NCBI RefSeq assembly: GCF_036409155.1
Contig: NZ_JAZGLW010000002.1
Span: forward strand, 434,001-498,000
DNA: 64,000 nucleotides
DNA from: Mycobacterium sp. 050128
GTDB taxonomy: Bacteria > Actinomycetota > Actinomycetes > Mycobacteriales > Mycobacteriaceae
Direction: 5' to 3'
Part shown: positions 33,707-43,501 of the stretch, in pieces
Layout of the letters: every line of letters begins with the position of its first letter
Numbering within the stretch: the first letter of the stretch is position 1
Program-made: the position numbers and the translations under genes
The notes under the pieces: generated by a model
Told to the model about the DNA's origin: nothing
What the model saw: the letters and a program-made list of their open reading frames with translations, nothing else
The model's database searches: none

Positions 33707-34723
33707 TCAGTGCCCGCTCAGCGTCAGCGTTCCCTTCGTTTGAAGCACTTTGCTGGCGATGATTTTCTCGGTCTTACGCGCCTCGCGCTCCAGATAGCGC
33801 TGCTTGGATTCGTCGAATTTGTCGGAGGCTTCTTCGAGTTCCTTGACCAGCAAGGCGAGGTCGTCACGCATCCTTGCGGCCTCGCCGGTGAAGTCTTCCC
33901 GTTCGAAGATGCGCCACTTCTTGAGCACGGGCATGACCACCTCGTTGAGATGGATGCGCGGGTCGTAAACACCGCCAACGGCGATGATTACCGCCTTGCG
34001 CCGAAACTCCGGGACCGTGAACCCGGGCATCTTGAAGTTGCGCAGGATTCGGTGCACCGATTTCATCGCTTGATTGGGCGCGATGTCCAGACCTGCCGCG
34101 CTGACATCCCGATAAAAGATCATGTGCAGGTTCTCGTCGTGCGACACCCTGGCCATCAACTGTTCTGCGATCGTGTCATTGCTGACTTTGCCCGTGTTGC
34201 GGTGCGAGACGCGGGTGGCCAATTCTTGAAACGAGACATACATGACGGAATCAAACAAGCTCTCAGCAAACGTATCGCCCTGCCGATTCTGGCCGGGGCT
34301 GAAGCCCCGCGTCATTTGCTCCATGCGGAGCTTTTCCAGCTCTACCGGGTCGACGGAGCGGGTGACCACCAGGTAGTCGCGGAGCGCCGTGCTGTGCCTG
34401 GCCTCTTCCGCGGTCCACCGATTCACCCATTGCCCCCACGGGCCGTCCATGCTGAAGTTCATCGCGATCTCACGGTGATAGGACGGTAAATTGTCCTCGG
34501 TCAGCAGGTTTTGCACCATCGCCACCTGGGCGACGTCAGGCAATCGGGTCTGTCCAGGCTCCCAATCTTGGCCGTCCAGCGCATAGAAATTTCTGCCATC
34601 CGACCAGGGCACGTAATCGTGCGGATTCCATTCCTTGAACATCGACAGGTGGCGGTTGAATAGCTGTTCAACGACCGGTTCAAGTTCGCGGAGTAGCTGC
34701 ACGTTCGTCAGGTCCTTGGACAC
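33707..34723 (-). CDS. desA1: Acyl-ACP desaturase, DesA1-like
   Basis: A 338-residue soluble di-iron desaturase that puts a double bond into long acyl chains on ACP, feeding mycolic acid synthesis. The length equals remembered M. tuberculosis DesA1 and the sequence follows it closely: QLLRELEPVVEQLFNRHLSMFKEWNPHDYVPWSDG, TEDNLPSYHREIA, WTAEEARHSTALRDYL (iron ligands Glu and His) and VSHDENLHMIFYRD (second Glu-x2-His). The start is GTG at 34723 after GAGGAGG. A palindromic site upstream (34759-34783) may bind a lipid regulator. It could be a second desA1-type copy rather than the main one. Confidence 0.88.
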   Translation of the reverse strand: MSKDLTNVQLLRELEPVVEQLFNRHLSMFKEWNPHDYVPWSDGRNFYALDGQDWEPGQTRLPDVAQVAMVQNLLTEDNLPSYHREIAMNFSMDGPWGQWVNRWTAEEARHSTALRDYLVVTRSVDPVELEKLRMEQMTRGFSPGQNRQGDTFAESLFDSVMYVSFQELATRVSHRNTGKVSNDTIAEQLMARVSHDENLHMIFYRDVSAAGLDIAPNQAMKSVHRILRNFKMPGFTVPEFRRKAVIIAVGGVYDPRIHLNEVVMPVLKKWRIFEREDFTGEAARMRDDLALLVKELEEASDKFDESKQRYLEREARKTEKIIASKVLQTKGTLTLSGH

Positions 34724-36790: not shown

Positions 36791-36827
36791 GCGGCGCATA
36801 GTTCGACCACCCGGGTAGGAGGAGATT

Positions 36828-37445
36828 ATGGGGGAATTACGGCAATTGGACCTGGTGTCCACATACATGCAAGCGCCCGTGCTAGGCGCCCACACTATCT
36901 CGCTTCGGCTCGACGAGTCAGAAGCAGGGCATATGAACGGCCAGCTCACTCTTGACCCGAATACTTGCACTCTCGACGGCTGGGGTGACCACGGCGGATG
37001 CACCAAGATGGCCGTTATGCGTCGAGATGCGACGGCGACAGCGATGAAAGCTCTTGACCCCCAAGGCCATAACCGAGTCCTGTGGGTTCTGGACGCTCGC
37101 GGAGCATCAACGGACGATGTCAAGCTGATCGAGTACCCGCAAGCAAACCTGTGGTACTTGACAGTGGGTGAGGCGTCGGTGGTGCCACTTTTTGATTCCC
37201 GGCTCTTCGCTGCCGATCCAGCGGGCACCATCCAGATGCGTTACGGCATGCCGCTTCGGGATCTCACCCAGCGTGGCGATGTCAATGAAATGCGAGCCGA
37301 GGCTGAGGTCGTTCGAAACGCGTTGGGCGCGCTAGATGCACATCCCGAGCTCGGTCAAGCCTGCGCACTTGACGCCGGCCACGTCGCCGATGTTCGCGCT
37401 GCCCTGGCAGACCTCGACGACGCGCTGGCGAATCTGAAGGATTGA
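36828..37445 (+). CDS. GDL-motif (DUF1843-like) protein, candidate RiPP precursor or partner
   Basis: A 205-residue protein opening the operon, with a strong ribosome site (GGAGGAG, 6 nt from the ATG). Residues 1-135 form a globular region of unknown fold (LTLDPNTCTLDGWGDHGGCTKM; NRVLWVLDARG; ANLWYLTVGEASVVPLFDSRLF). Residues 139-152 read YGMPLRDLTQRGDV: Tyr, ten residues, then Gly-Asp-Val. This matches the Y-x(10)-GDL signature of short peptides next to a known group of radical SAM/SPASM maturases. The tail HVADVRAALADLDDALANL also looks like DUF1843. Known partners are, as I recall, much shorter, so a 205-residue form with its own N-terminal domain is unusual. Whether it is modified is inference. 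Confidence 0.7.
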   Translation: MGELRQLDLVSTYMQAPVLGAHTISLRLDESEAGHMNGQLTLDPNTCTLDGWGDHGGCTKMAVMRRDATATAMKALDPQGHNRVLWVLDARGASTDDVKLIEYPQANLWYLTVGEASVVPLFDSRLFAADPAGTIQMRYGMPLRDLTQRGDVNEMRAEAEVVRNALGALDAHPELGQACALDAGHVADVRAALADLDDALANLKD

Positions 37446-37448
37446 CGC

Positions 37449-38936
37449 GTGACGCAACCGACGCGGTTGCCGAGCGCGCAGGACTGGACGGCCGCACGGC
37501 CCGTATATGTGGTGTGGGAGCTGACACTGGCCTGCAACCAGCACTGTGGCCACTGCGGTTCTCGAGCGGGAAGCAAACGCAGTGGCGAGCTCACGTTGGA
37601 CGAATGCCGCGACGTGATCGAGCAGCTCGCGGCACTGGGCACCCGGGAGATCACGCTCATCGGCGGAGAGGCTTATCTGCGACGTGACTGGGTCGAGGTG
37701 GTTCGCGCCATCTCCGAGCACGGGATCCTCGCCACCATGCAGACCGGTGGCCGTGGGCTTCACCCACACGTTCTCGACGCCGCAATCGCCGCTGGTCTGC
37801 GTTCGGTTGGGGTATCAATCGACGGACCCGATGATGTGCACGACGCGCTGCGCGGCGTCCCGCGATCCGCCGCATCGGCGTGGCGCCTGCTGACGTTGTG
37901 CCGTGATCGCGGACTACCGACGACTGTGAACACAACTGTGACGCCCCCGGCGTTGACGCGACTGGAGGAGATGTTCGAGCGGCTTATCCAAGCCGGTGTA
38001 TCCACCTGGCAGGTCGGCATCAACGTGGCCATGGGTCGGGCAGCCGACGACCCGACTCTGCTGCTGCAACCGTATGACTTGCTCGAGCTGGTTCCGCGGC
38101 TGGCGGCGCTGGCCCGTGCCGGTCAACTCCGCGGCCTGGTCATCATGCCGGGAAACACCATGGGCTACTTCGGCCCCGACGAGGCGCTGCTACGACAGGG
38201 CGGCGATACGCGCGTGCACTGGACAGGTTGCAACGCCGGTCGCAACGGCATGGGTCTGGAATCCGATGGCACGCTCAAAGCCTGTCCGTCGCTGCCTCGC
38301 GAAGACTACGCCGCCGGTAACGTGCGCGAATTCCCGATCGAACAACTCTGGCAACGCTCCGACGGGGCACGATACCTCCGCACCCGGACCGTAGACGATC
38401 TGTGGGGATTCTGTCGCACGTGCGTGTACGCCGCCGACTGCCTGGCCGGGTGTACTTGGGTCAGTCATTCCTTCCTGGGCCGGCCGGGCAACAATCCGTA
38501 CTGCCACCACCGGGCGCTCGCGCTTCAGCAGCAGGGTTTTCGCGAGCGGGTGCAACGGGTCAGCGCACCGCCGGGTGAGCCGTTCGATATGGGCGAATTC
38601 ATTTTGATCCTTGAACCCGAGGATGGGCGCGGTCTCGGCGAGGTTCAGGTCCCGCCGGTCTGGTCTCGCCCCGACACGCGTGATCGCGCCGAGCGACCTG
38701 TGCCGCGAAGACTCGCGCTGTGTCCCGATTGCGGGCGGTATTCGGATCCGGTGCATGGGGAATGCGTCTACTGCGGCTGCGATTTGGCTCAAGCAAATTT
38801 CGAGCGGGCGCGGCATTTGGCTCAGGCCCGTCAAGCGCTGGTCCACCTTCGCAATACACTCGACGAATCGTCTTGGTGGTCTGACGGGCGAGCGGCTTTT
38901 TTCTCATCGTCTAGGCAACGTCAACAGGAAAGGTGA
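37449..38936 (+). CDS. Radical SAM/SPASM maturase (GDL-peptide-associated type) with C-terminal zinc ribbon
   Basis: A 495-residue enzyme. The radical SAM cluster motif CNQHCGHC (Cys29, 33, 36) sits in VWELTLACNQHCGHCGSRAG. The barrel follows with LIGGEAYLRRDWVEVV, SVSIDGPDDVHDALRG and NPYCHHRALALQ. SPASM cysteines are in HWTGCNAGRNGMGLESDGTLKACPS and FCRTCVYAADCLAGCTW, for auxiliary Fe-S clusters. By eye this is the group annotated as GDL-motif peptide-associated maturases. An added tail (about 415-495) holds a zinc-ribbon pattern (CPDCGRYSD...CVYCGC) and a helical end, perhaps for substrate binding. The GTG start is 3 nt after the upstream stop: one operon. The chemistry performed on the substrate is unknown. 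Confidence 0.87.
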   Translation: MTQPTRLPSAQDWTAARPVYVVWELTLACNQHCGHCGSRAGSKRSGELTLDECRDVIEQLAALGTREITLIGGEAYLRRDWVEVVRAISEHGILATMQTGGRGLHPHVLDAAIAAGLRSVGVSIDGPDDVHDALRGVPRSAASAWRLLTLCRDRGLPTTVNTTVTPPALTRLEEMFERLIQAGVSTWQVGINVAMGRAADDPTLLLQPYDLLELVPRLAALARAGQLRGLVIMPGNTMGYFGPDEALLRQGGDTRVHWTGCNAGRNGMGLESDGTLKACPSLPREDYAAGNVREFPIEQLWQRSDGARYLRTRTVDDLWGFCRTCVYAADCLAGCTWVSHSFLGRPGNNPYCHHRALALQQQGFRERVQRVSAPPGEPFDMGEFILILEPEDGRGLGEVQVPPVWSRPDTRDRAERPVPRRLALCPDCGRYSDPVHGECVYCGCDLAQANFERARHLAQARQALVHLRNTLDESSWWSDGRAAFFSSSRQRQQER

Positions 38937-39078
38937 CGCATCTCCGTTGCATCACGAGGCCAACGGCTTTCGTGGTCCGGGCCGGCGCGCCGATGCACAT
39001 CGATCACCATGGCACGTGTCAGGAATACGCGCCTGATTTGAACTCAGGTCCGCGTGGAGCTACTAGTGCACGGTAACG

Positions 39079-39684
39079 CTAGCACTCAAAAGTGCACGCT
39101 TCTTCTCCACCAGCCCACGGCTGCTTGTAGTCAGCCGTAATGGTAGTTGTGCCTGCCTTCAAAGCCTTGAACATCCAGACATCTTGGCCCGGTTCCCCCA
39201 GAACCAGCGGCGGGCCGATCGGTCCTTCCCACTCGTGACTGGTTTGCTGTACGACGGTGGAATCGCCGATCTCTGTGTCGGTTGTCCAACTGTATCCGGT
39301 GGTTGGATTCGAGCCTAGGCGGATTTTCAGCATGTCACCGACAGCCACGTCAATATTGGAGAGAATGGATCGCTCCATCACGTTCATCACATCGCCGTAG
39401 TAGACATCGATAGCTGCAGCAGGATCCCCACCCGGCCCGCCCAGGTCCCGGCCACGTAGAGGCGGCAGGGCGACCACTCGAATGAAGTTGGGCTTCTCGA
39501 GCTCCCCCTCTAACTCCACGACGTGGCGGTTGTAGAACTCCAGCTCGAAATCCGGGAGGGAGAGTTCTCGCTCATGGAAATGGAGCAGGCAATCGCCGTC
39601 ACGCGTCTGCAGCCAGTAGTCCGGTCCCTCGCTTTTCGTCCCGACCCGACCAAGCTTGACGTAGAGAAATCCCTCAAACTTCAT
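39079..39684 (-). CDS. Chagasin-like (I42) cysteine-protease inhibitor domain protein
   Basis: A 201-residue protein with no signal peptide. Residues 1-75 form a small beta domain (LQTRDGDCLLHFHERELSL) of unknown type. Residues about 108-201 match the inhibitor family I42: the loops that enter the protease cleft are visible as NPTTGYSW (126-133), GEPGQDVWMF (163-172) and KQPW (187-190), in order and at normal spacing. Chagasin-type proteins block papain-like proteases with tight binding. In this place it could protect against a host or rival protease, or an unseen toxin. The start overlaps the stop of the upstream membrane-protein gene as ATGA. Confidence 0.75.
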   Translation of the reverse strand: MKFEGFLYVKLGRVGTKSEGPDYWLQTRDGDCLLHFHERELSLPDFELEFYNRHVVELEGELEKPNFIRVVALPPLRGRDLGGPGGDPAAAIDVYYGDVMNVMERSILSNIDVAVGDMLKIRLGSNPTTGYSWTTDTEIGDSTVVQQTSHEWEGPIGPPLVLGEPGQDVWMFKALKAGTTTITADYKQPWAGGEEACTFEC

Positions 39685-40175: not shown

Positions 40176-40837
40176 AGGTACCCTCCCTGTTCCTATTTGG
40201 TGGATGTCACCAGCCTCCCCAGATGGTGCGCGCCGATATAGGGCCAAAAGCCCATCGACGCTAGAGACGAACGGCCCCAGTCCTCGAAGCCGCGAAGAAT
40301 AGGGTCAGCAGACCGTGCGAATCAGCGTATTACGGGGCTTGGGCTATACGTGCTGATTGGTCGGTTCATTCGACGAATTTTCCTCGAATTCGATTCGTCA
40401 AGATCGAGCCCCCGAGTGAGGCGATCGTTTGGGACTCTCGCGGCGAAAGGAAAGAATAACTCTATGTAGCATAATACGTCCAAATTGATATATCACAAAT
40501 GAGGATTTTCCAAAAAACGCCTCCTAGGGAAACACACGCTCAGCCCCGTGTGCCCACGCCGGTCGAGGCACCAAGGGTGGGTCGGTAGTGGGGCGGGAAA
40601 CTACAGGTGTCGTTCGTCGAGACACTTGGGGCCTAAAGTCCCTTGGTCGGGGTGACGCCCAAGCCAAGACTCGAGGGCAACACGTGAAGGCTAAAAACGT
40701 GTTACGCGGGAAACAATCTGTTTTGTTCGTACTTGCGGAGATTTTCCGCAGTAGGACAGGAGAGCAGGCGCGGAGCGGAACGGCGTCGCAAAAACTTGGA
40801 AATCACGCAAATCGTTTGCCTTCGGCAAGGGGAAATT
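40176..40837. other. AT-rich divergent intergenic region in the island
   Basis: 662 bases between divergent starts. Around 40440-40515 the sequence is strikingly AT-rich for this genome (TATGTAGCATAATACG, TTGATATATCACAAATGAGG), likely promoter DNA and probably silenced by a xenogeneic silencer such as Lsr2. The open frames crossing it (40588 and the first 35 codons from 40733) do not look like protein. No RNA gene or repeat is recognised. Confidence 0.5.
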
Positions 40838-43501
40838 GTGAAGCTCATCGATTTTTCTGCCCATCAAATCCCACCAGACGCCATCAAAGCTGCCGGGTAT
40901 CGCGGCGTGATCGCCTATGTGTCGGAATCGCGTCCCGGCACCGCCTTCGGCGCAAAGCCCGTAGCCCGCGAGTACGCCGACGCGCTACGCGCTCAGGGTC
41001 TGCAAATTGTGAGCAACTTCCAATATGGCAAGCCGGGCGGATCCGCGCCCTCAGATTTTACCCGCGGTTTCGCTGGCGGGGTTGCTGATGCGCAGACCGC
41101 GATGCGGCTTCACAAAGCTGCCGGGGGGCCAGACTCGGCGCCAATCTTCTTCACGATCGATGAGGACATCGATCTCGATCGCTGGAACAGCGTGGCCGTC
41201 GAGTGGTTCCGCGGGATCAACTCTGTTCTGGGAGTTGACCGTACCGGTATCTACGGCAACTCCCGCGTATGCGCCTGGGCGATCGACGACGGCGTCGTAG
41301 GGTACTCGACGACGCCGGGTCGTCGTTGGGTCTGGCAAACGAAAGCCTGGTCGTGCGGTTACCGGGAGCCCTCGGCGGTGCTCTACCAGGACGTCATCGA
41401 CACCGCGTCACACCCCGGTCCCCGCGTGACCGACATCGCTGTCGACGAAGACGAAGTTCTCGCAGACGATTTCGGCCAGTGGAGTCTTGACCGACCAGAC
41501 CACGCGACAGTGCCGAAACCCGACTTCGACGAGCACACTGACATGGAAAGCCCCTATTTCGATTCCCGCAAGGCCGAGGTCTTGTGGTTCGTGCTGCACA
41601 CCGAGGACGGGTACAGCAAGTCTGCGCGAAATCTCGCCAACTATCTGTGCAACAACGACTCTGAGGTTTCGTACCATTACACCGTCGACAACGACGGACA
41701 GTTGTACAACGTCGTTGACACCGACAATCTCGCCAACGCGGTGTTTGAGCCCGGCAACTCTAAATCCATCAATTTGGCTTTCGCAGGGTCGTTCGCACGG
41801 TGGTCCCGCCAGGACTGGTTGGACAGGATGCGGCACGCCATCGAGGTGGCTGCCTACATCGCGGTTCGTGATGCGCGCCGGTATGGCCTGCAGCCAAGGG
41901 TAATCAGTCCCGCCGACGCGGCGAGGGGAGAACCGGGCATCACAGATCACAACGGCGTGCGGATCGCAACCGGAAAGGGTGACCATACCGACGTGGGCCC
42001 GGGCTTTCCCTGGGATTTCTTCCGGCAAAAGCTGAGCGAATATGTTGGCGAAGTAACAACTGCGGCGGCAAACATGGGGACTCATTTAGAACAGGTCGAG
42101 CCTATTGGCCGCGGGTCTGTCAGCGACCATGTCGCTCACATTCAGGACCGATTGAACACGGTCTTCCATGCGGGTCTGCTCCCCGATGGTGAATTCGGTG
42201 AGAAGACGCATGCTGCGGTCGCAGAGTTTCAGACCAGCCGTGGCCTTATCCCCGACGGCCGAGTCGGGCCTCATACATGGCTGCAATTGTTCTCCGATCG
42301 GGATCGTCTCGCGAAAGCCATGAACAGCGGATGGCGCCCACCACTCCCCGAAGCACTAGTCCTGCCGAAGCCAATTGAACCTGGACCACCGGTGTCCCTA
42401 TCAAGCAAGGTCAAAGATGTCACCGGCCCTGGCGGCCTAACCGATCAGTTCAGCATGGCGGCAACGGATCTGGGCGTCATGGCCCGCACCCCCTCGGGCC
42501 GCATCTTGGCGGTATTCGGCGACACGTTCCGCGAGCCACGGGTGGCCGGCAGCGACTGGCGTGCACCTGTCGCCTTGTTCTCCGATACCAAAAATTTGGA
42601 CCAGGGCATCGTTTGGAGCGAGGCGGCCGGCGGAGACCCGAACTACGCTCGACAACTCTGGCCGTACCCCCACCACCTCCCCTCGGGTGACACCACGGTG
42701 TTGCCCTCGGACGTCATGACGATCGGCAATGCGATGTACCTCCACGCGAGCGCGCACTTCCCGTTCGGAAACGTCGGATTCACCGAAATCTGGAAATCCA
42801 CCGATGATGGCCACACTTGGTTCCGCCCAGGGCCCCGCTTCGACGGCGGGATCCACAACGGGCTGGCGCAGCTGTGGACCTGGGACGTTGGTGACGACGG
42901 GTTCGTCTACGTGATGTCTACAGCCTTCCGCGTCGCACGCGACGCGCCGATCATTTTGCGTCGCGTTCCCGCCGACCGGCTTACCGACCCGGGCGCCTAT
43001 GAGGGGTGGGGCTTCGGCGCAAACGGATGGGCATGGGGCAACGAACCGACGCCGGTCCTTGACGGCGGCTACGGCGAGATGTGCCTTCGGCGCATTCAGG
43101 GTCAATGGGTGTTCGTGGTTTTCAACAACTTCGCATATCGGCTTGAGCTGCGGGTGTTCCCCGACATCACCTCCAACCTCTACAACGTGCCGATGAACGT
43201 CCCGATCCACGGCGCCGACTGGGGCGCCGAGGGCGGTGACGCCGTGGCCCAGCTGTACGGACCTTCCATCGTCCCGGGTTCGCGCCTAGACGCCGGCTTC
43301 CATCTCCTCGTCAGCCAGTGGAAAGCACCCGGTCCCTGGCCCTACCACGTAATGCAGTTCAAAATCCCGCTACCCCCGGATACGGCGCCAGGTCAGACTT
43401 TGGAACGCGCCGTCGGCTCGATTAATGGTCGAAAGCGACCCTCAATCAACCCCAACAGGCAGCCCAAAAAGGCTGCGGCGAAGGCTCAGTCCCGTCGATG
43501 A
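40838..43501 (+). CDS. Multi-domain lysin: DUF1906 + amidase + peptidoglycan-binding + DUF4185
   Basis: An 887-residue protein without a signal peptide. Residues about 1-215 form a DUF1906 glycoside-hydrolase-like TIM barrel (LIDFSAHQIPPDAIKAAGYRGVIAYVS; FFTIDEDIDLDRW). Residues about 250-400 form an N-acetylmuramoyl-L-alanine amidase (WFVLHTEDG, SYHYTVDNDG, ITDHNGV with GDHTDVGP supplying zinc His). Residues about 427-485 form a peptidoglycan-binding domain (HIQDRLN, GLLPDGEFGEKTHAAVAEFQ). Residues about 528-857 are DUF4185, sialidase-like (GRILAVFGDTF; STDDGHTW). The parts recall mycobacteriophage lysins joined to a surface hydrolase. The GTG at 40838 follows AAGGGGAAA. The tail is basic (KKAAAKAQSRR). 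A cell-wall-attacking effector is likely; the export route is not visible. Confidence 0.85.
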   Translation: MKLIDFSAHQIPPDAIKAAGYRGVIAYVSESRPGTAFGAKPVAREYADALRAQGLQIVSNFQYGKPGGSAPSDFTRGFAGGVADAQTAMRLHKAAGGPDSAPIFFTIDEDIDLDRWNSVAVEWFRGINSVLGVDRTGIYGNSRVCAWAIDDGVVGYSTTPGRRWVWQTKAWSCGYREPSAVLYQDVIDTASHPGPRVTDIAVDEDEVLADDFGQWSLDRPDHATVPKPDFDEHTDMESPYFDSRKAEVLWFVLHTEDGYSKSARNLANYLCNNDSEVSYHYTVDNDGQLYNVVDTDNLANAVFEPGNSKSINLAFAGSFARWSRQDWLDRMRHAIEVAAYIAVRDARRYGLQPRVISPADAARGEPGITDHNGVRIATGKGDHTDVGPGFPWDFFRQKLSEYVGEVTTAAANMGTHLEQVEPIGRGSVSDHVAHIQDRLNTVFHAGLLPDGEFGEKTHAAVAEFQTSRGLIPDGRVGPHTWLQLFSDRDRLAKAMNSGWRPPLPEALVLPKPIEPGPPVSLSSKVKDVTGPGGLTDQFSMAATDLGVMARTPSGRILAVFGDTFREPRVAGSDWRAPVALFSDTKNLDQGIVWSEAAGGDPNYARQLWPYPHHLPSGDTTVLPSDVMTIGNAMYLHASAHFPFGNVGFTEIWKSTDDGHTWFRPGPRFDGGIHNGLAQLWTWDVGDDGFVYVMSTAFRVARDAPIILRRVPADRLTDPGAYEGWGFGANGWAWGNEPTPVLDGGYGEMCLRRIQGQWVFVVFNNFAYRLELRVFPDITSNLYNVPMNVPIHGADWGAEGGDAVAQLYGPSIVPGSRLDAGFHLLVSQWKAPGPWPYHVMQFKIPLPPDTAPGQTLERAVGSINGRKRPSINPNRQPKKAAAKAQSRR

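Follow-up and report, generated by a model that had tools for sequence, protein, structure and literature searches.

A divergent GDL-group radical SAM maturase beside a two-domain partner protein in Mycobacterium sp. 050128: a candidate tyrosine-splicing pair

What does a radical SAM/SPASM enzyme do when the gene directly upstream encodes a two-domain protein in place of a short precursor peptide? The question is raised by a gene pair in a 64,000-nucleotide stretch of the Mycobacterium sp. 050128 genome (contig NZ_JAZGLW010000002.1, positions 434,001 to 498,000; hereafter the window), in which an ATG-initiated ORF of 205 residues is followed, 3 nt after its stop codon, by a GTG-initiated ORF of 495 residues (Table 1). 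The original prediction described the first product as a protein with Tyr139, ten residues and then Gly150-Asp151-Val152, and the second as a radical SAM/SPASM enzyme with Cys29, Cys33 and Cys36. Both descriptions agree with the sequence, and Pfam assigns PF04055 (Radical_SAM, 83.6 bits) and PF13186 (SPASM, 30.8 bits against a cut-off of 21.5) to the enzyme. A search for a sigma-70-type promoter gave 0 matches (0.3 in shuffled sequences), and terminator-like sites occur at a frequency near chance (3, compared to 1.4 with a standard deviation of 1.2 in shuffles). Third-position GC is 0.65 and 0.72 in the two genes, below the value of 0.85 for the upstream permease gene, which was the only gene compared, and this difference in composition suggests that the pair was acquired from elsewhere. 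A 47-codon GTG frame (window 38933-39076, + strand) overlaps the stop codon of the enzyme gene and may be due to chance.

Table 1. Positions of the gene pair and its sequence features within the window.
Feature	Position	Strand	Basis
Shine-Dalgarno-like AGGAGG, 5 nt before ATG	36817..36822	+	read from sequence
Two-domain partner, 205 residues, putative substrate	36828..37445	+	ORF; 57 database relatives
N-terminal beta-barrel module, residues 6-123, ten strand segments in model	36843..37196	+	
Arg138-Tyr139-Gly140, putative X-Y-G splice site	37239..37247	+	R-Y-G in 30/30 tail-bearing members
Gly150-Asp151 of Y-x(10)-GD signature	37275..37280	+	G 30/30, D 29/30
DUF1843-like helical tail, residues 139-205	37242..37442	+	relatives' PF08898 matches, hhalign, predicted model
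Radical SAM/SPASM maturase, divergent TIGR03913, 495 residues	37449..38936	+	Pfam, NCBIfam, trees
Radical SAM CxxxCxxC, Cys29/33/36	37533..37556	+	read from sequence
SPASM domain, residues 261-325	38229..38423	+	PF13186, 30.8 bits
C-terminal zinc ribbon, Cys425/428/439/442, family-wide	38721..38774	+	sequence; pattern in 117/120 listed relatives

The enzyme is a divergent TIGR03913 maturase; the pair adds a new branch to a known family and does not amount to a new kind of system. Its best match in NCBIfam is TIGR03913 ("GDL motif peptide-associated"; 498.7 bits, under the equivalog cut-off of 591.75), followed by TIGR04103, nif11-class maturase 3 (408.4 bits, under the cut-off of 725), which we take to be the PlpX family (the paper on PlpX gives IPR026482); the third family reaches only 143.9 bits. 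The TIGR03913 alignment is close to full length (protein residues 3-466, model positions 3-471 of 477) and includes the zinc ribbon, which had been predicted to be an added feature of this maturase. This view of the ribbon has to be abandoned because it lies within the model and because, among the 120 relatives listed, 117 have the pattern CxxC...CxxC after residue 380 (18 of the 20 in the clade described below, and 99 of the 100 others). Identity is 67-93% for the 20 nearest of these 120 relatives and at most 54% for the rest; the larger set retrieved at E <= 1e-30 (6822 of 7999 scored candidates) may include other SPASM families. In trees of 47 rows and of 43 rows, the latter obtained by removing four of the longest rows from the former, the window enzyme and its 20 nearest relatives form one group (support 100/100), giving a clade of 21. 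Two clade members, P0011 and P0030, score 496.1 and 457.2 bits against TIGR03913, both under the cut-off, and the neighbor of the clade in the tree, P0031, lies above it (597.5 bits). Since long branches are flagged among the outer rows of both trees, the deeper branching order is uncertain.

Two protein-database searches (10 and then 57 relatives) gave a partner family of 58 when the window protein is included. A profile of residues 153 onward, built from nine members and leaving out the motif, finds the tail in 30 of these 58 proteins, all of which contain R-Y-G and Gly150; Asp151 is present in 29 (P0006 has Glu) and Pro at +3 in 24. Tails in the motif-pattern count were selected by Y-G and G-D/E, so the counts for those residues hold by construction, but Arg138 was never selected for. 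Moreover, the motif-free profile scores R-Y-G at the expected place in 28 of the 30 proteins; the other two, P0007 and P0131, were positioned from a different, weak match, and both carry R-Y-G by the motif pattern. Given that 30 of 58 members have the tail and every one of the 30 has R-Y-G, the link between the two is, judged from these sequences, in excess of chance. Free variation of the Tyr and Gly-Asp residues, which the original prediction had named as the outcome that would count against it, is therefore not seen among the tail-bearing proteins. The associated expectation that the Y-x10-GD segment would be the most conserved part is correct in that its mean column entropy is low (0.96 bits for Y139-D151, in which motif positions were selected for, against 1.48 for residues 18-130 and 1.45 for residues 157-205), but this conservation is not unique because the family alignment shows that the barrel holds invariant residues of its own outside the motif. 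Among the 28 members without the tail, 11 have a different C-terminal domain; the other 17 either stop close to where the barrel does or show no recognizable tail, and some of these were probably cut by contig ends. One barrel protein, P0167, ends in THDGVP where relatives read TRYGVP, with no tail after it, and possibly preserves a decayed splice site.

The proposed resemblance of the tail to DUF1843 is evident in the relatives of the window protein, which itself matches 0 Pfam families at E <= 10. Thus, PF08898 (DUF1843) matches 19 of the 58 members at E <= 10, the best at 4.8e-5, and one of ten members scanned singly exceeds the curated cut-off (P0141, 24.3 against 23.3 bits). In addition, a single hhalign comparison of 13 members with nine short DUF1843 peptides, taken from three plasmids (two of Azospirillum, one of Aureibacter), gives a probability of 94.6 (E 6.6e-8), with the Tyr residues aligned to each other and likewise the Gly-Asp pairs. 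The nine short peptides retain Tyr and Asp throughout (9/9 each) and Gly before Asp in six; the residue after Tyr is Gly in five, Met in two and Ala in two, and the residue before it is L, M or P, never the invariant Arg of the tail-bearing partners. At the Azospirillum and Aureibacter loci these tail-only peptides lie directly upstream of related TIGR03913-type enzymes. The placement of the window enzyme in the maturase group that accompanies Y-x(10)-GDL peptides, next to a probable substrate, is borne out by its best-matching family and by the constancy of the motif. We consider it very probable, from sequence comparison, that the two genes encode an enzyme-substrate pair in which the 205-residue protein is the substrate. 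If it were instead a binding partner or carrier helping the enzyme to act on something else, its predicted folded, two-domain structure, unlike that of a typical short precursor, would be readily understood, and the search of the own genome covered only homologs of the 205-residue protein (1 match, itself); this reading is nevertheless quite improbable given the conservation of R-Y-G and the tail, and the tail-only peptides found in the corresponding upstream position beside related enzymes.

The predicted model shows the partner to be a folded two-domain protein, and its length had been put forward as unusual for this group. This is not so, since the 212-residue protein Q63NT7 is described as a DUF1842 barrel joined to a DUF1843 tail (PMC10994174), and in Chromobacterium a GDL maturase is reported to be co-expressed with a cluster of two DUF1842 proteins and one DUF1843 protein (PMC12114271). 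In contrast to such DUF1842-DUF1843 proteins of Burkholderia and Chromobacterium, DUF1842 (PF08896) is not listed for any of the 58 members of the partner family at E <= 10, with filters that drop most matches above 0.1. A DUF1842 search at E <= 0.001 likewise found nothing in the own genome, and hhalign gave no match between the barrel family and the one actinobacterial DUF1842 protein found. Assignment of the barrel to DUF1842 by sequence has no support in the 58-member scan or in hhalign, and any likeness would be in fold only. Even there, the unrelated barrels GID4 (9.4) and avidin (8.5) score as high as the DUF1842-type barrel; 8t0b is absent among the 50 Foldseek rows listed and present in a second comparison. 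Of the sequence searches of the PDB with the partner, one returned nothing and another just two keratins (E 0.62 and 2.3), and no match to a viral fold library was obtained at E <= 0.001.

The barrel appears to be a mobile module, since it is also joined to the different C-terminal domain, of about 110 residues, in P0009, P0148, P0149, P0151, P0153, P0157, P0158, P0162, P0166, P0171 and P0172. Ten of these proteins are recognized by the pattern KRTSI and P0151 reads RRTSI; no Pfam match to this domain was obtained for P0148, P0153 and P0166, each scanned singly. Cys47, Cys58 and the residues around them are nearly invariant across all 58 members, those without the tail included, as might be expected if the DUF1843 tail were a recognition handle and the modification took place elsewhere, for example in the L-D-P-N-x-C ... 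W-G-D ... C-T segment of the barrel. We regard this as unlikely. The absence of the tail from 28 of the 58 members, even if some are probably cut by contig ends, implies that barrel conservation may serve another role, and the related enzymes of Azospirillum and Aureibacter adjoin peptides that consist of the tail only.

Whether homologous pairs keep the two genes together, as had been anticipated, can be answered indirectly in the affirmative for the clade. For 9 of the 20 clade maturases, the longest contig is exactly as long as that of a tail-bearing partner from the same data source, the two having been found in independent searches (enzyme/partner sets P0012/P0002, P0013/P0003, P0014/P0008, P0015/P0005, P0016/P0154, P0019/P0010, P0021/P0139, P0028/P0138 and P0030/P0137). 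On one contig of 2206 bases the two genes would fill 2058 and must therefore be adjacent if both are located on it. This evidence, indirect as it is, suggests that the enzyme and partner genes stay together in the clade. The same matching outside the clade links 3 of 100 enzymes to a partner: one match is impossible without overlap (1959 coding bases on 1772), a second joins different sources, and the third, P0132/P0045, may be true. Named holders of the clade are Mycobacterium sp. 050272 (enzyme), Mycobacterium sp. SMC-2 (both genes) and Myxococcales bins (P0030, P0137). The suggestion of a mycobacterial subtype fails because the clade extends to Myxococcales and because, of 396 genomes of the same genus, only the window's own contains the partner. 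A similar pattern is seen for the enzyme, which at E <= 1e-60 is present in 1 of 61 relatives (the own genome) and, among 383 genomes of the genus with a completeness floor of 99%, in two, the own genome and G285; across 396 genomes of the phylum, TIGR03913 at E <= 1e-90 again occurs in the own one only. The G285 enzyme (L015 5276-6550) is TIGR04103-like and of splicease type (608.1 bits, cut-off 725), and no obvious Y-G-x-P precursor lies beside it. Scanning genome contigs with a single-sequence query yielded two distant enzymes, and searches of viral contigs with P0137 and of plasmids with P0141 returned nothing. No clean insertion point can be drawn around the pair because the permease upstream has a patchy distribution, being present at E <= 1e-150 in 6 of 40 other genomes (five from the genus), and because the downstream protein is matched by partial relatives only, in 6 of 40 others.

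Tyr139 is likely to be the site of modification. For the reaction itself we propose, by analogy and with a probability of about 0.5, a PlpX-type excision of tyramine at Tyr139 that leaves an arginine alpha-ketoamide. PlpX and PlpY are reported to excise tyramine at X-Y-G and to rejoin the chain as an alpha-ketoamide (PMC11002830, PMC10533398), and X-Y-G is met in the partner as R138-Y139-G140. The enzyme would accordingly act on the DUF1843-like tail at Tyr139, cut the tyramine part out of Arg138-Tyr139-Gly140 and join the Tyr carbonyl to the Arg carbonyl, so that a backbone arginine alpha-ketoamide would be placed just after the barrel, which would remain attached as a carrier or targeting domain. 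Consistent with this proposal, TIGR03913 and TIGR04103 score far above the third family; a Nostoc TIGR04103 enzyme (853.1 bits, cut-off 725) that shares 45% identity with the window enzyme over 378 columns has an upstream Nif11 precursor ending in ...ALYGLPPELF; and the tail aligns Tyr-on-Tyr with peptides located beside TIGR03913-type enzymes. The PlpXY leader is reported to be dispensable and tags can be placed inside proteins (PMC11002830, PMC10533398), but only 2 of 16 rows in a table of FtsZ tags are marked as modified, and internal placement is thus not always tolerated by PlpXY (PMC10533398). Accepted tags contain PGYGLPI (PMC10533398, PMC11002830); the site here is MRYGMPL, and the cores YGMPL and YGLPI match at Y-G-x-P. 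Against splicing are the shortness of this likeness beyond Y-G and the position of the enzyme under both family cut-offs. We hold the proposal at even odds because no reaction of a TIGR03913 member was found in the open-licence literature searched, and because some of the short peptides lack Gly after Tyr.

This last observation, together with the retention of Tyr and Asp in all nine peptides, would also suit other radical SAM chemistry at or near Tyr139, such as a C-C or C-O crosslink to a nearby residue or epimerization, with Gly-Asp being structural or recognized by the enzyme. SPASM enzymes are described as catalyzing many reaction types (PMC8326336). We nevertheless consider such chemistry somewhat unlikely, given that clade partners have Arg before and Gly after Tyr in 30 of 30 cases and that the second-best family of the enzyme is TIGR04103. 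The system resembles the TIGR03913 GDL maturases in its nearly full-length match, ribbon included, in having a partner with a DUF1843-like tail directly upstream, and in the position of its clade beside P0031, but differs in having one long partner instead of three short peptides at each of the three plasmid loci, an enzyme below the equivalog cut-off, and Arg in place of L, M or P before Tyr. With the spliceotide system PlpX/PlpY and TIGR04103 it shares the second-best family match, the identity to the Nostoc enzyme and X-Y-G in the partner, but it has no Nif11 or NHLP leader, a folded carrier protein in place of the leader peptide, and an extra zinc ribbon. In addition, no PlpY-like gene was recognized beside the enzyme, the gaps next to the pair holding only ORFs of at most 47 residues. 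The 71-residue protein encoded after the Nostoc enzyme, a putative PlpY counterpart, gave no match at E <= 1 when the own genome was searched without a positive control.

Cyclotheonamides, which act on trypsin-like proteases through an alpha-ketoamide group, carry arginine as their P1 residue. They are reported to inhibit serine proteases, forming a hemiketal with the active serine in the trypsin complex (PMC8154582), and the group left by splicing is reported to have served as a protease-inhibiting moiety (PMC11002830). By analogy, a spliced partner might act as a protein-borne inhibitor in which an arginine alpha-ketoamide after the folded barrel would reversibly and covalently capture trypsin-like serine proteases or Arg-specific cysteine proteases, a role that we regard as rather unlikely. 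The invariant Arg, in place of the L, M or P of the nine short peptides, would suit a trypsin-like P1 site. DUF1842/DUF1843 genes elsewhere are reported to rise strongly in stationary-phase or quorum-sensing cultures (PMC12114271, PMC12322963), which fits a protective or a competitive product and does not choose between the two. The enzyme has many relatives, yet we found no description of the clade, or of a product of the GDL group, in the searchable, open-licence literature; the main splicease survey, Scott et al. 2022 (doi 10.1016/j.chempr.2022.09.017), which is cited for 939 predicted splicease systems, lies outside that coverage and may list the clade. If R-Y-G is spliced, ketoamide electrophiles would occur on folded native proteins and not on short peptides only, and the invariant arginine would predict the target class. 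Because this is a two-gene system with one recognized substrate, TIGR03913 chemistry is directly testable by co-expression.

Several other features were noted. Downstream of the pair (window 39079-39684, - strand) lies the gene for a 201-residue protein with a chagasin-type Inhibitor_I42 domain at residues 113-199 (PF09394, 78.9 bits), and this peptidase-inhibitor gene may be a chance neighbor. On a Tropicibacter plasmid (L011 3725-6533), a maturase relative with an N-terminal zinc-ribbon-like CPDC...CPFC is encoded by a gene that overlaps a trypsin-like peptidase gene. The window also contains the small RNA ASdes (RF01781, 65.2 bits; 34338-34405, + strand), antisense to a fatty acid desaturase gene (33707-34723), and a gene (40733-43501, + strand) for a 922-residue protein that combines an Rv2525c-like glycoside hydrolase with Amidase_2, peptidoglycan-binding and DUF4185 domains.
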